This document shows positions 2 through 8,846 of a stretch of DNA of 64,000 nucleotides, in pieces. The notes under the pieces are model-generated. The model saw only the letters and a list, made by a program, of their open reading frames with translations, was not told the origin of the DNA and ran no database searches. Position 1 is the stretch's first letter. Every line of letters begins with the position of its first letter. The DNA is taken from the NCBI RefSeq assembly GCF_000244875.1, contig NC_016791.1, positions 2,299,001 to 2,363,000 of the forward strand, written 5' to 3'. The translations under genes were made by a program, and so were the position numbers. Source of the stretch: Clostridium sp. BNL1100 (lineage in GTDB: Bacteria > Bacillota > Clostridia > Acetivibrionales > DSM-1351).

Positions 2-1258
2 TTTCTATTGTTATGGATTACACAGTCGTTTTCGGCACTTGGTAGTGCGATGACCAACTTTGCACTGGTGATTTGGTCTTATCAGCAACAAGGGTCTGCT
101 CTTACCACCTCGCTATTGGCCATCTGTTCTTATGCACCATATGTCTTACTGAGTATCTTCGCAGGTGCACTTAGCGACCGATGGAACAAGAAGATAACAA
201 TGCTGATTAGTGACAGCTTTGCAGCACTTTGTACCATATCGGTACTAGTTCTGCTGACAACCGGTAAACTCCAGACTTGGCATCTGTACTTGATCAACAC
301 CTTGAATGGATTGATGAATACGGTACAGCAACCGGCATCAGAGGTGACCATCAGCCTGTTGACTCCGAAAAAGCATTATCAGAAGGTAAGTGGGATGCGA
401 TCCTTCTCTAATTCGCTGGTTACAATACTGACGCCTGTACTTGCCACGGCAATGCTTTCTTTTACAAGCATTAAGTTCGTCATCCTATTTGATTTGATTA
501 CATATGTCACAGCGTTTGTGTCACTACTATGCTTTATAAAAATACCTCAAGTTACAGAACAGAGAATTACTGCCAGCGAAACTGTATTGCAGTCTGCAAA
601 AAGTGGCTTTCGGTATCTTAAGGATAATCGGGGAATTCTGGATTTGATCCTATTTTTGGCCGTAATCAATTTTACCGCCTCAATCTTCAATGCCGCACTG
701 CCTGCAATGATGCTCTCACGTATTGGCGGCGGAGAGGTGGCCCTTGGCATGGTCAATACCGTAACAGGAATAGCAACAATGTTTGGAAGCATTTTGGTTT
801 CTATCCTGCCTCCGCCAAAAAGCCGAGTACGAGTTATTTGTAATTCCTTACTTTTTGCAATGAGTACCGAAAATTTTATTCTTGCTTTCGGCAGGTGTAC
901 GTGGGTGTGGTGTTTGGGTGCAATCTTAGGCTGGATTTTTATTCCTGTAATGGGGACCAATATGGATGTGCTTTTTCGGTCAAAAATACCTATTGAGATG
1001 CAGGGACGTGTCTATTCGGTTAGGAATACGCTACAGTTTTTCACCATTCCTTTAGGTTATCTGTGCGGCGGTTTTTTTGTTGACAGAGTGTTTGAACCAT
1101 TTATGGCAGAACAGTCGATGGGTAGCCTGTGGGTTACATTGTTCGGGTCAGGAAAAGGCTCCGGAGCAGCTCTGCTATTTTTTGTAATCGGAATTTTTGG
1201 CGCATTATCTTGTCTGCCATTTCGGGCGGACAGAAATATTTGGAAATTAGAAGAATAG
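2..1258 (+). CDS. MFS drug-efflux-type transporter, 5' end cut by window
   Basis: Proton-coupled export of a small molecule across the cytoplasmic membrane is the likely role. The frame is open from base 2 and the first visible residues already lie in transmembrane helix 1, so the true start is upstream of the window. About 11-12 hydrophobic segments are visible. The loop GALSDRWNKK is the MFS motif A between helices 2 and 3, and EMQGRVYSVRN is the equivalent loop in the second half. Overall it resembles the Mef/MFS_3 type of efflux pump that includes the macrolide exporter at 4623-5837, but it is clearly a different protein. Substrate is unknown. It ends 19 bases before a strong terminator and converges with the regulator at 1352-1939. 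Confidence 0.85.
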   Translation, partial: FLLLWITQSFSALGSAMTNFALVIWSYQQQGSALTTSLLAICSYAPYVLLSIFAGALSDRWNKKITMLISDSFAALCTISVLVLLTTGKLQTWHLYLINTLNGLMNTVQQPASEVTISLLTPKKHYQKVSGMRSFSNSLVTILTPVLATAMLSFTSIKFVILFDLITYVTAFVSLLCFIKIPQVTEQRITASETVLQSAKSGFRYLKDNRGILDLILFLAVINFTASIFNAALPAMMLSRIGGGEVALGMVNTVTGIATMFGSILVSILPPPKSRVRVICNSLLFAMSTENFILAFGRCTWVWCLGAILGWIFIPVMGTNMDVLFRSKIPIEMQGRVYSVRNTLQFFTIPLGYLCGGFFVDRVFEPFMAEQSMGSLWVTLFGSGKGSGAALLFFVIGIFGALSCLPFRADRNIWKLEE

Positions 1259-3027: not shown

Positions 3028-4491
3028 TTAACGTATTAAGTTTAATTTCTTATCTTTGATTTCATAAATAATATCAGCCACATTATCAAGCAGCCTTTTA
3101 TCATGGGTGATAAACACAATAGTTCCAGCATACCCTTTCATCAGCACCTCCAAAGCTTCTAAACTTGGAAGGTCAAGGAAATTGCTCGGTTCGTCCATTA
3201 ACAAAATATTATACCTTCCCATTAGCATTTTAGCCAGCAGCAATTTACTAATTTCGCCGCCGCTTAAAACAGATAACCTCTTGCCGATATCATTTTGTAC
3301 AAAGCTCATGGAGGCTAAAACTGAACGAATTTCTGACACATTGTAATCACAATCCTCCTGCATAAATTCCATGACAAACTGATTAGGGTTGTACTTGTAG
3401 CCATTCTGAGCAAAGTAACCTATTTCAGCCTTGGATGAAATAGAAATACCCTTTTCATGGTTTAAGATCATTTCAATTAAAGTTGTTTTTCCTGTACCAT
3501 TACCACCTGTCAGAGCTACTTTCGCTCCAAGCGGAATGCTGAAAGATGCATTTTCAAATAATCCCTTATCTCCAAACCTTTTATTGATTTCAGTGCCGAT
3601 AATGGGATACGGATTATGAAGTTCAAGTACTTTACCCTGCCGAAAACGAATGGTGCGTATGCTTTCCGGAGCTTTGATGTCACCCAATGCTGCCTTCCTA
3701 TGTTCCAAAGACTTGGCAGCTTTATATAATGTTTTTTGCTTACTTCCCATTGTTTTCTGATGGGCCAAACGTCCGCCTCTTTCAGAAGTTTTTTTCTTAG
3801 CAACATCTTTTGCTTTTTGTTCTATTTTACGTGCTTGTTTACGCTTATCCTTGGCAGCTTGTTCCAATCGATCCCGTTCTGCAATAAATTGATCATATTT
3901 TGCGACCTGATTTTTACGTTCATTCTCTTTCTGACAAAGATAATAAGAATAGTTACCCCAATACTCAGTGATTTTGCCATCTTCGAGTTCCCATATTTTA
4001 TCCGCAACCTCGTCAAGAAAATAGCGGTCATGGCTGATAACCAGCAATGCACCTGAAAAATATTTTAACTGTCCAATTAAAAAATCGGTTCCTTCACGGT
4101 CTAAATGACTGGTAGGTTCATCTGCCAAAAGACAATGTACCTGCGCTGAAAGAGCCTGTGCTATTTTAAGTCTTGTTTCTTCACCTCCACTCATGGTCTT
4201 TACCTCTAATTGCCCAACACTAAGTTTACCTATAAGGGTAAAATCTTTTTCCTCCTGTAAAGTTACTTCATCCAACTGAGGGATATATGCAAATCCTCCA
4301 CGGCGACTGATTTTGCATCCTAGCGGAGTTAATTCTCCCAAGAGCACCTTGAGTAAGGTGCTTTTTCCTGCACCATTTGCTCCCACCAAACCAATGCGGT
4401 CATAATCATATAATTCTAATTCATCAATGTCCAGAACATCACGTCCTGTATATTCCAAACGAATGTCCTTAGCTTTTATTATCAATTCCAT
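3028..4491 (-). CDS. ABC-F ribosomal protection protein, Msr(D)/Mel-like
   Basis: Soluble ATPase of 487 aa that, by family, binds the ribosomal E site and dislodges macrolide-type antibiotics. It has two ABC domains without membrane segments: Walker [10 protein letters not shown] near residue 37 with signature [10 protein letters not shown], and Walker [10 protein letters not shown] with signature [10 protein letters not shown]. Between them is the long, Lys/Glu-rich linker typical of antibiotic-resistance ABC-F proteins. As I recall it, Msr(D)/Mel is similar throughout. A TTG at 4509 is open, but GGGAGGG six bases before ATG 4491 sets the start there. It follows the mef-like gene in the same direction, the same pair as the streptococcal mef-msr(D) operon. 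Translation is probably controlled by the leader at 4494-4603. The substrate range is inferred from the family. Confidence 0.9.
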
Positions 4492-4493
4492 AT

Positions 4494-4603
4494 TTTTCCC
4501 TCCCGTCAAAATCGCATGTTCTCATTTACCTGTTCGCAGGGAAAATCCTGCGATTTGAGCTGGAAGGTTTATATAAAAATATAAAACATAAATGTTCCTC
4601 CTT
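4494..4603 (-). promoter_or_regulatory. Translational attenuator in front of the Msr-like gene
   Basis: The RNA holds a good SD (AGGAGG, 4597-4602), a six-codon leader ORF (4569-4589) and then two competing folds. CCUUCC (4562-4567), directly after the leader stop, can pair with the SD GGGAGGG (4498-4504) of the ABC-F gene. Next to it UCAAAUCGCA can pair with UGCGAUUUUGA, with one bulged base. A separate local hairpin, CGCAGG/CCUGCG, uses the same left arm. A ribosome stalled on the leader ORF would cover CCUUCC and free the msr SD, as in ermC-type translational attenuation. The pairing is seen; the drug response is inference. Confidence 0.7.
4569..4589 (-). CDS. Leader peptide MFYIFI
   Basis: ATG plus five codons and TAA, seven bases after a consensus SD, ending just before the anti-SD segment of the msr leader. 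Its SD begins about 20 bases after the stop of the mef-like gene. Short aromatic/Ile-rich peptides of this kind act as macrolide-dependent stalling peptides in erm leaders. The function here is inferred from position. Confidence 0.6.
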   Translation of the reverse strand: MFYIFI

Positions 4604-4622: not shown

Positions 4623-5837
4623 TTAGTCCAATTTCCTGACTTCGCCTACTAGCGGACAAATTATAGCTATGCCGATAATTAAAATACCTGATAGCAGAAA
4701 CCAGTTATTTACACCGATTCGATCAGCAAAGAATCCGGAAAGGATTAAACCAACCGGCATAGCTAAAGACATGATGCTCCCTGTCAGAGAAAACACACGT
4801 CCTAAATATTCAGGTTTAATTTTCTCTTGAAAAAGAGCCGTTTGCACGCCGCTGTAAAACGGAACCGATAGACCCATAATTACACAGCAGACTACAAATA
4901 TTACGAATCCGCTTGTGGGAAGTAACCCTGAAATGGTCAAACTGGCGCCCATCATAAAAATAGAAGTTGTTATTAATACAATTCGCTTTTTAAAGCCTCC
5001 AAATAGTCCTAATATCAAACCGCCTGCCAGCATACCACAAGCATAAGCGATTTCGGTAACAGAAACATGTACCGGTGTTCCAGCAAAATATTCCATGCTA
5101 ACTAAAGGGTAAAGTGCATTGATTGGCATATAAACAAACATATATAGTGTACCTATAAGCAGCAATGCAAATAGTCCTTTGTTTTCTTTTAGAACACCAA
5201 GTCCTTCCTTCATCTCTTTCATAAAATTTCGATCCAGGCTTTTCTGCTCTGCACTAAGCTTAGGAATACGTACAAGCGCTACCGTGATACATGCAATCAC
5301 TGCACCCATTACGTCGATGGCTATTATCGTATTTAACTCCCAAACAGAATATAAAAACGCTGCAGCAGCAGGACTGAGAATATAGCTTATGGACTGCAAA
5401 GCCTGACTGTACCCCGCACATTTTGTCAGCTGTTTTTCAGGTACTAAAAGAGGCGTTGCGGCACTTAGTGCAGGTGAATGGAAAGCTGTTCCAATGCTTC
5501 GGACAAACAATACAACCATAACCATCCAGACCTGCAGTTCCATATACAAAGCATTAATAGCCAACAGTGCCCCGGCTGCAGCAACAACCGCATCAGCACC
5601 AATCATTATCTTTTTTCTATCATATCGGTCGACTAATACACCTATCACAGGCCCAAAGACTGCATATGGCAGAAATCCGACCAATGAAGCAATTGACAAC
5701 ACCATAGCTGATCCTGTTTTTTGTGTAAGATAAAAGATTATCGCCATTTGCAGAATGGCACTTGTAATAAGTGAAATCGCCTGACCTACCAATATGGTAA
5801 AAAAATCCTTTTTCCATTTTGAAATTTGTTTTTTCAT
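4623..5837 (-). CDS. Macrolide efflux MFS transporter, Mef(A)-like
   Basis: Membrane exporter of 404 aa with 12 predicted helices. Long stretches match the streptococcal Mef(A)/Mef(E) protein as I remember it (for example AGQ/VGQ-ISLITSAILQMA near the N-terminus and FYSGVQTALFQEKIKPEYLG near residue 340). Motif A is GVLVDRYDRKK. The reading frame is open to 6014, but GGAG eight bases before ATG 5837 marks the start; the region above it is untranslated leader. It is followed by the ABC-F gene, so export and ribosome protection are probably co-expressed. Two intrinsic terminators in the leader (5881-5924 and 6016-6054) imply attenuation. The macrolide substrate is inferred from similarity. Confidence 0.9.
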   Translation of the reverse strand: MKKQISKWKKDFFTILVGQAISLITSAILQMAIIFYLTQKTGSAMVLSIASLVGFLPYAVFGPVIGVLVDRYDRKKIMIGADAVVAAAGALLAINALYMELQVWMVMVVLFVRSIGTAFHSPALSAATPLLVPEKQLTKCAGYSQALQSISYILSPAAAAFLYSVWELNTIIAIDVMGAVIACITVALVRIPKLSAEQKSLDRNFMKEMKEGLGVLKENKGLFALLLIGTLYMFVYMPINALYPLVSMEYFAGTPVHVSVTEIAYACGMLAGGLILGLFGGFKKRIVLITTSIFMMGASLTISGLLPTSGFVIFVVCCVIMGLSVPFYSGVQTALFQEKIKPEYLGRVFSLTGSIMSLAMPVGLILSGFFADRIGVNNWFLLSGILIIGIAIICPLVGEVRKLD

Positions 5838-5880
5838 ACATGATTCTCCAGTCTTTTTATTGTAGTTCTTTTCAGGCAAT

Positions 5881-5924
5881 AAAAAATGCAGGCCAAAATC
5901 CGCAAAGCGAGCTTTAGTCTGCAT
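5881..5924 (-). terminator. Attenuator terminator 2 in the mef leader
   Basis: On the minus strand AUGCAG pairs with CUGCAU around a second, imperfect stem (UCGC-UUU-GCGG flanked by CUAAA/UUUGG), followed directly by six U. It sits about 40 bases before the mef-like start, so it must be read through for expression. Confidence 0.75.
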
Positions 5925-6015
5925 ATTAACGTTAAAAAGACATTGGAAAAACATATAACCTAAGATAGTTACACTTCGCCCATATCTATGTCTCAATTCG
6001 TATAATAAGCACAAT

Positions 6016-6054
6016 AAAAAAGCCCACCATTGCAGATGATGTTACCGCTTCTTT
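6016..6054 (-). terminator. Attenuator terminator 1 in the mef leader
   Basis: AAAGAAGC (6047-6054) pairs with GCUUUUUU (6016-6023), with an inner CAUCAU/AUGGUG stem. It lies 14 bases after the stop of the MFLFV leader peptide, the spacing expected if a ribosome on the leader ORF controls folding. Confidence 0.65.
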
Positions 6055-6068
6055 ATTACCAGCTTATC

Positions 6069-6086
6069 TTAAACGAATAAAAACAT
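6069..6086 (-). CDS. Leader peptide MFLFV
   Basis: Five codons plus TAA, preceded by the consensus SD AAAGGAGG (AGGAGG at 6098-6103; 11-base spacing). It lies between the promoter at 6126-6155 and terminator 1. It is probably a drug-responsive stalling peptide for the macrolide operon, by analogy with mef(E)-mel and erm leaders; the peptide itself is not one I recognise. Confidence 0.6.
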   Translation of the reverse strand: MFLFV

Positions 6087-6125
6087 AGATAGAATGTCCT
6101 CCTTTAATTAACTAAGTTTGAATTA

Positions 6126-6212: not shown

Positions 6213-8846
<2,634 letters not shown>

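Follow-up and report, generated by a model that had tools for sequence, protein, structure and literature searches.

A putative msrDL-type attenuator with a predicted Shine-Dalgarno lock in a chromosomal mef(A)-msr(D) operon of Clostridium sp. BNL1100

The mef/msr(D) pair is a macrolide resistance operon of clinical importance, and the chromosomal copy in Clostridium sp. BNL1100 raises the question of whether its msr(D)-type gene is controlled by termination of transcription, by concealment of its Shine-Dalgarno (SD) sequence or by both. For the window, that is the whole stretch of 64,000 nucleotides analysed here, an earlier note had proposed a translational attenuator of the ermC kind in front of msr(D). 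Our analyses indicated that the element is probably an msrDL attenuator, in which a ribosome stalled on the leader would free the msr(D) SD and would also relieve a weak terminator. It belongs, as nothing out of the ordinary, to an attenuator family already in the literature; the added translational layer that comparison supports is apparently undescribed.

Fostier et al. 2023 (PMC10314930) describe msrDL (MYLIFM), which lies between mefA and msrD and acts there as a second attenuator, at the level of transcription; the view of the earlier note, that attenuation is usually described only upstream of mef and that a second switch is unusual, is out of date. In that system ribosomes stall under erythromycin or azithromycin when M6 occupies the P site and the UAA codon the A site, F5 occludes release factors, an intrinsic terminator of -7.9 kcal/mol has its first half beneath the stalled ribosome, and the msrD transcript rises; the assignment to transcription was made by northern blot and terminator deletion. 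The term Shine-Dalgarno is absent from the main text of that paper and SD sequestration is not mentioned in the sections covered, and a literature search on msrD, Shine-Dalgarno and sequestration returned the vmlR paper (PMC9226507) only.

Anatomy of the element and its operon

Matches to family models agreed with the gene identities given in the earlier note, the msr gene product reaching 732 bits with the Msr family model NF000168 (curated NCBIfam cut-off 680) and the mef product 762 bits with the Mef(A) model NF000245 (cut-off 675). The window Msr shares about 82% identity with streptococcal Msr(D), and the element lies between mef and the msr(D)-family gene, as an msrDL attenuator requires. 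The features are as follows.

3028-4491, minus strand: msr(D)-type ABC-F ribosomal protection gene (487 aa; ATG at 4491)
4498-4504, minus strand: msr(D) Shine-Dalgarno GGGAGGG, predicted to be sequestered by CCUUCC
4509-4516, minus strand: right arm of the extending stem, UGCGAUUU (from fold and comparison)
4535-4552, minus strand: local competing hairpin CGCAGG-AUUUUC-CCUGCG, candidate anti-attenuator (-9.4 kcal/mol, z -4.6)
4542-4564, minus strand: terminator equivalent UCCaGC-UCAAAUC-GCaGGA then UUUU, counterpart of the published msrDL intrinsic terminator
4549-4556, minus strand: left arm of the extending stem, AAAUCGCA (from fold and comparison)
4562-4567, minus strand: CCUUCC, left arm common to the SD-sequestering stem and the terminator-like hairpin
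4569-4589, minus strand: leader ORF MFYIFI with UAA stop, homologue of MsrDL (MYLIFM)
4597-4603, minus strand: leader Shine-Dalgarno AAGGAGG (predicted 0.74 unpaired)
4623-5837, minus strand: mef(A)-type macrolide efflux gene (NF000245; start placed from homology)
5879-6087, minus strand: first attenuator of the operon, upstream of mef (Rfam RF02862 sRNA_1300, 92 bits)

Beside the operon, the gene at 6213-8843 (minus strand) matches the rifamycin-inactivating phosphotransferase model NF041857 with 1453 bits (cut-off 999), broader PEP-synthase models scoring similarly or higher, and a second MFS transporter, distantly related to Mef, lies at 8-1258 (plus strand).

The minus strand from 4603 to 4489 begins AAGGAGG-aacattt-leader ORF-a-CCTTCC-agctc-AAATCGCA-ggattttccctgcg and ends TGCGATTT-tgac-GGGAGGG-aaaaat-ATG. 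The six-codon leader reported in the earlier note is present, with a strong SD and the codons ATG TTT TAT ATT TTT ATA TAA, and so is the CCUUCC that can pair with GGGAGGG, separated from the leader stop by the single A at 4568. The extending stem had been put at 10 bp, which is roughly right since AAAUCGCA and UGCGAUUU form 8 perfect pairs with about two more beyond a bulge; the competing local hairpin was likewise found, overlapping the left arm of that stem. CCUUCC would be covered by a ribosome that stalled at the stop codon of the leader.

As in streptococcal msrDL (Mega, Tn1207.3), the element is located between mef and msr(D), the leader SD lies just past the mef stop, a hexapeptide with F5 and UAA is followed directly by the left arm, and a local hairpin and an msr SD stem are present. 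The window differs from msrDL in its leader, MFYIFI versus MYLIFM (F2, Y3 and I6 in place of Y2, L3 and M6), in a terminator equivalent of -3.9 versus -7.9 kcal/mol, and in that the mechanism published for msrDL is transcriptional. The six-codon hydrophobic leader retains I4, F5 and the UAA stop of MsrDL, I4 being critical in the published alanine scan and L3 being required for drug sensing in streptococcal MsrDL (PMC10314930). Y3, which stands in the window where MsrDL has L3, is read as a leader sub-type and not as family-defining because it is also common in relatives (MYYIFM/I).

The following course of events is proposed. Without drug, MFYIFI would be translated and the ribosome released, after which the RNA past the stop would fold, CCUUCC pairing with the msr(D) SD in a stem lengthened by AAAUCGCA and UGCGAUUU, and msr(D) would be translated poorly; the weak terminator-like hairpin, built on the same left arm, may end some transcripts. 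A ribosome stalled on the leader would place its footprint over CCUUCC, so that neither hairpin could form, RNA polymerase would pass and the SD would be freed, with the local hairpin possibly helping its release. Stalling on MFYIFI is expected from homology, residue 3 being different from that of MsrDL. Which drugs are sensed, and how much each of the two layers contributes, we infer; mainly translational control, with a transcriptional share possible, is favoured because in the window the SD stem is predicted more strongly than the terminator, which is weak.

The first attenuator, RF02862, is also found upstream of mef in relatives. In the window and in L001, L002, L003, L025, L028, L029, L045, L048, L091, L105 and L132, matches to this family, whose annotation is 'Enterococcus sRNA 1300', fall on the upstream transcription attenuator of mef/msr rather than on a free-standing sRNA. 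Its window leader reads MFLFV* (6086-6069, minus strand) compared with M...R-x-R* in relatives (MYSVRLR, MLHSIRIR, MFANRLR, MTASMRLR); in the alignment it is one base shorter than that of L001 and the +x+ arrest motif is out of frame, which suggests that in the window this switch may work less well or differently. In L025, L028, L029, L045, L105 and L132, mef was not found within the sequence stretch examined, and RF02862 lies there in tandem, directly upstream of the msrDL-type element. In these copies the second switch cannot separate msr from mef, as would be expected of an additional lock on msr itself.

Predicted folding of the window copy

Folding of the minus-strand RNA, which the earlier note had suggested as a check, placed the msr SD inside a long stem (4625-4470, -32.7 kcal/mol, z -2.5), 4 of 200 shuffled sequences folding as well. 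A stalled ribosome was represented by deletion of the bases it would cover at the stop codon. The window SD was predicted to be unpaired at 0.00 in the free RNA and 0.35 with the footprint, the weakest release of 25 leaders, since re-pairing of UUUUCCC with GGGAAAAA is possible. The release was 0.95 when the 3' tail was short, and the addition of 30 bases of coding context lowered it to 0.35; the figure from the longer context was adopted, and the 'complete switch' of the earlier note is accordingly an overstatement. A footprint-dependent release as large as that of the window was obtained in 51 of 500 shuffles. A helix of at least 6 bp with the polypurine SD arose in 64% of shuffled spacers, and in 8% such a helix lay within 12 nt of the stop. 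Complementarity in the window alone was therefore rejected as evidence, shuffles matching it readily; the CCUUCC match by itself is not beyond chance, and it is homology and the relatives that make the case.

The streptococcal sequence CUUCCUGCUAAAAUCGCAGGGUUUUCC folds to exactly the published -7.9 kcal/mol and is thus very probably the published terminator. The window equivalent reaches only -3.9 kcal/mol because of an A.A mismatch, is followed by only four U and then CCC, and was not called by a consensus terminator scan. The left arm of the window carries an uncompensated U-to-A change, with loss of a pair in both stems.

Relatives and the competing explanations

Species genomes were scanned with the Msr protein, giving 46 relatives (at least 56% identity, gene start present), and streptococcal and other copies were added from phage and plasmid records; a search of viral contigs gave two copies. 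A sequence-only model built on 18 training rows, the window among them (97 bits as a training row), found further copies upstream of msr genes. Matches at 17-23 bits were left out; among the few of these inspected, only L127 (G785) resembled an msr gene start, without a leader. Plasmid-borne msr(E) was rejected as a carrier of the same leader, its matches spanning the gene start only.

Leaders in relatives include MYLIFM, MYYIFM, MYYIFI, MYYIFL, MHYIFM, MYIVFM, MFYIFS and MFYIYI. The pattern M-[YFH]-[YLI]-[IV]-F-x is kept in intact relatives with synonymous variation of the codons, the exceptions being L106, with Y in place of F, and L045, one residue longer. Intact relatives also have a CUUCCUG-like arm directly after the stop, a GCAGG...CCUGC hairpin and a GGAGG-containing partner before the msr start. 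Three copies appear to be decaying, with msr cut off shortly after its start (L137), a shorter, out-of-frame leader (L139) or an RNA that ends after the local hairpin (L140); having a broken gene or leader, they were excluded from the main counts, L137 being kept in the sensitivity set only. A distant Msr clade (L039-L044, about 56% identical, from uncultured Clostridium and relatives) has a different leader, MIPRIW, and a layout of alternating hairpins (AUCACGAGUUA, UAACUCGU, GUAAUAAAGGAG) that resembles ermC more than msrDL.

Across 25 distinct leaders the SD was predicted to be unpaired at a mean of 0.07 in free RNA and 0.77 after removal of the footprint bases; it was hidden in nearly all and exposed under the stalled-ribosome footprint in most. 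RNAalifold on the full MAFFT alignment (A2) recovered the local hairpin only and not the SD stem. Since this alignment misplaces arms (the 3' arm in four sequences), pairs were counted on arms placed by anchors, namely the 10 nt before the AAAUCGCA motif (16 of 17 rows, not L106) and the GGAGG end. The SD stem, whose common form is CUUCCUGY/ACAGGAGG, was paired in 88% of cells, the streptococcal sequence L003 included among its carriers, and double changes at pairs 6, 7 or 8 were found in L045 (CUUCCAUC/GAUGGAGG), L132 (CUUGCUUC/GAAGGAGG), L034 (UUCUCUAU/AUGGGAGG) and L030. The earlier note had named a lack of covariation in homologues as what would refute its proposal; that outcome was not observed, compensatory changes being present. 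The covariation score was 0.20 versus 0.106 in shuffles, with 0 of 500 reaching it in controls that ignore relatedness, and whole-arm permutation, again with relatedness ignored, gave P = 0.0002-0.0004, rising to 0.014 without the four rows hardest to place. The second helix showed one double change, C-G to U-A in L028, and the local hairpin some excess of covariation. The terminator stem showed none, 321 of 500 shuffles being as high. Many mef-linked relatives retain a hairpin of -6 to -8 kcal/mol before UUUU; a usable hairpin with U-tract was not found in L026, L030, L034, L035 and L132, the hairpin is very weak in L045 and L027, and several such relatives still keep the SD stem. The covariation support rests on few independent events; with this limit, the comparative data suggest an added translational layer.

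The earlier note had taken the element for a translational switch; its leader-dependent control and SD-sequestering stem are supported here, and the terminator had been left out of account. If control were by transcription attenuation only, as in streptococcal msrDL, the stalled ribosome would block the terminator UCC.GC/GC.GGA-UUUU and the SD pairing would be incidental. We consider this rather unlikely, even though northern blot, terminator deletion and the lack of effect of bicyclomycin argue for it in the homologue (PMC10314930), the fold reproduces the streptococcal terminator, every terminator arm has its counterpart at the corresponding place in the window, and L138 has an uncompensated mismatch in its SD stem and keeps a CCUU/AAGG terminator-like pairing. 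Against it stand the weakness of the window hairpin, its loss in relatives that keep the SD stem, and an excess of covariation that lies in the SD arm and not in the terminator arm. The published deletion, if the CUUCCUGC arm was removed, would presumably free the SD too, and stalled ribosomes can stabilise transcripts, protection of mef(E)/mel RNA having been reported for mef(E)L (PMC4335068). Since stalled ribosomes protect RNA and the deletion may remove the anti-SD arm, increases in transcript do not exclude translational control.

It is less probable still, and in our view improbable, that the operon was acquired and that the switch is a decayed remnant no longer working here. The frameshifted mef leader, the uncompensated change in the left arm, the lowest predicted SD release of the 25 leaders and the patchy occurrence of the gene in the genus (2 of 11 genomes) point in that direction; mef and msr are nevertheless intact, full-length ORFs, the leader ORF, leader SD, stop codon and main stems are all present, and the degenerate relatives L137, L139 and L140 look very different from the window. 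That the SD, being polypurine, matches a pyrimidine-rich spacer by chance and without any regulatory role draws some support from the frequency of such helices in shuffled spacers, and yet it is hardly credible given the conservation of position and sequence across genera, the compensatory changes and the leader-dependent control shown experimentally for the streptococcal homologue (PMC10314930). The shared-arm reading, with control of both transcription and translation, is plausible on the strength of a small number of independent events.

Known systems and the msrDL family

In ermC several segments alternate in their pairing, and the leader is 19 codons long, with the stall site in its interior. 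The window element is predicted to resemble ermC, whose leader ErmCL stalls with cladinose macrolides, in that an anti-SD pairing would be undone by a stalled ribosome; it differs in its six-codon leader, its one shared arm and the stop-codon stall of the msrDL homologue, which does not stall only during elongation. The label 'ermC-like' thus holds as an analogy: the element partly works like ermC, yet it is not a member of the ermC type.

The vmlR leader of Bacillus subtilis (PMC9226507) likewise serves an ABC-F gene in two layers, with a leader peptide, a terminator and an SD-sequestering hairpin (vmlR SL-4); although a different element, it sets an example of an ABC-F leader that combines a terminator with an SD-hiding hairpin. 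Unlike the msrDL-type element, it has a tripeptide uORF, separate terminator and SD hairpins with an antiterminator, and responds to PLSA drugs. The mef(E)/mef(A) upstream attenuator (Mef(E)L MTASMRLR; RF02862; PMC4335068) shares the operon and a macrolide-stalled leader with the msrDL-type element; it is a separate element that differs in its location upstream of mef, its true U-rich terminator and its +x+ arrest motif.

For the msrDL family as a whole we see an even chance that it forms a dual switch, in which one arm of 6-8 bases would serve mutually exclusive terminator and SD-lock hairpins and one stalled ribosome would undo both. Beyond streptococci the SD lock would be conserved and the terminator often weak or gone, and where mef is lacking the lock, in tandem behind the upstream attenuator, would act as a further gate, for msr only.

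In the chromosomal copies of clostridia the switch is seen beyond mobile streptococcal elements, and these copies offer natural variants for weighing both layers. If msr(D) is also under translational control, the published transcript-level data would have missed that layer, and the 'double lock' that the operon places on a costly resistance factor would combine a transcriptional lock with a largely translational one.
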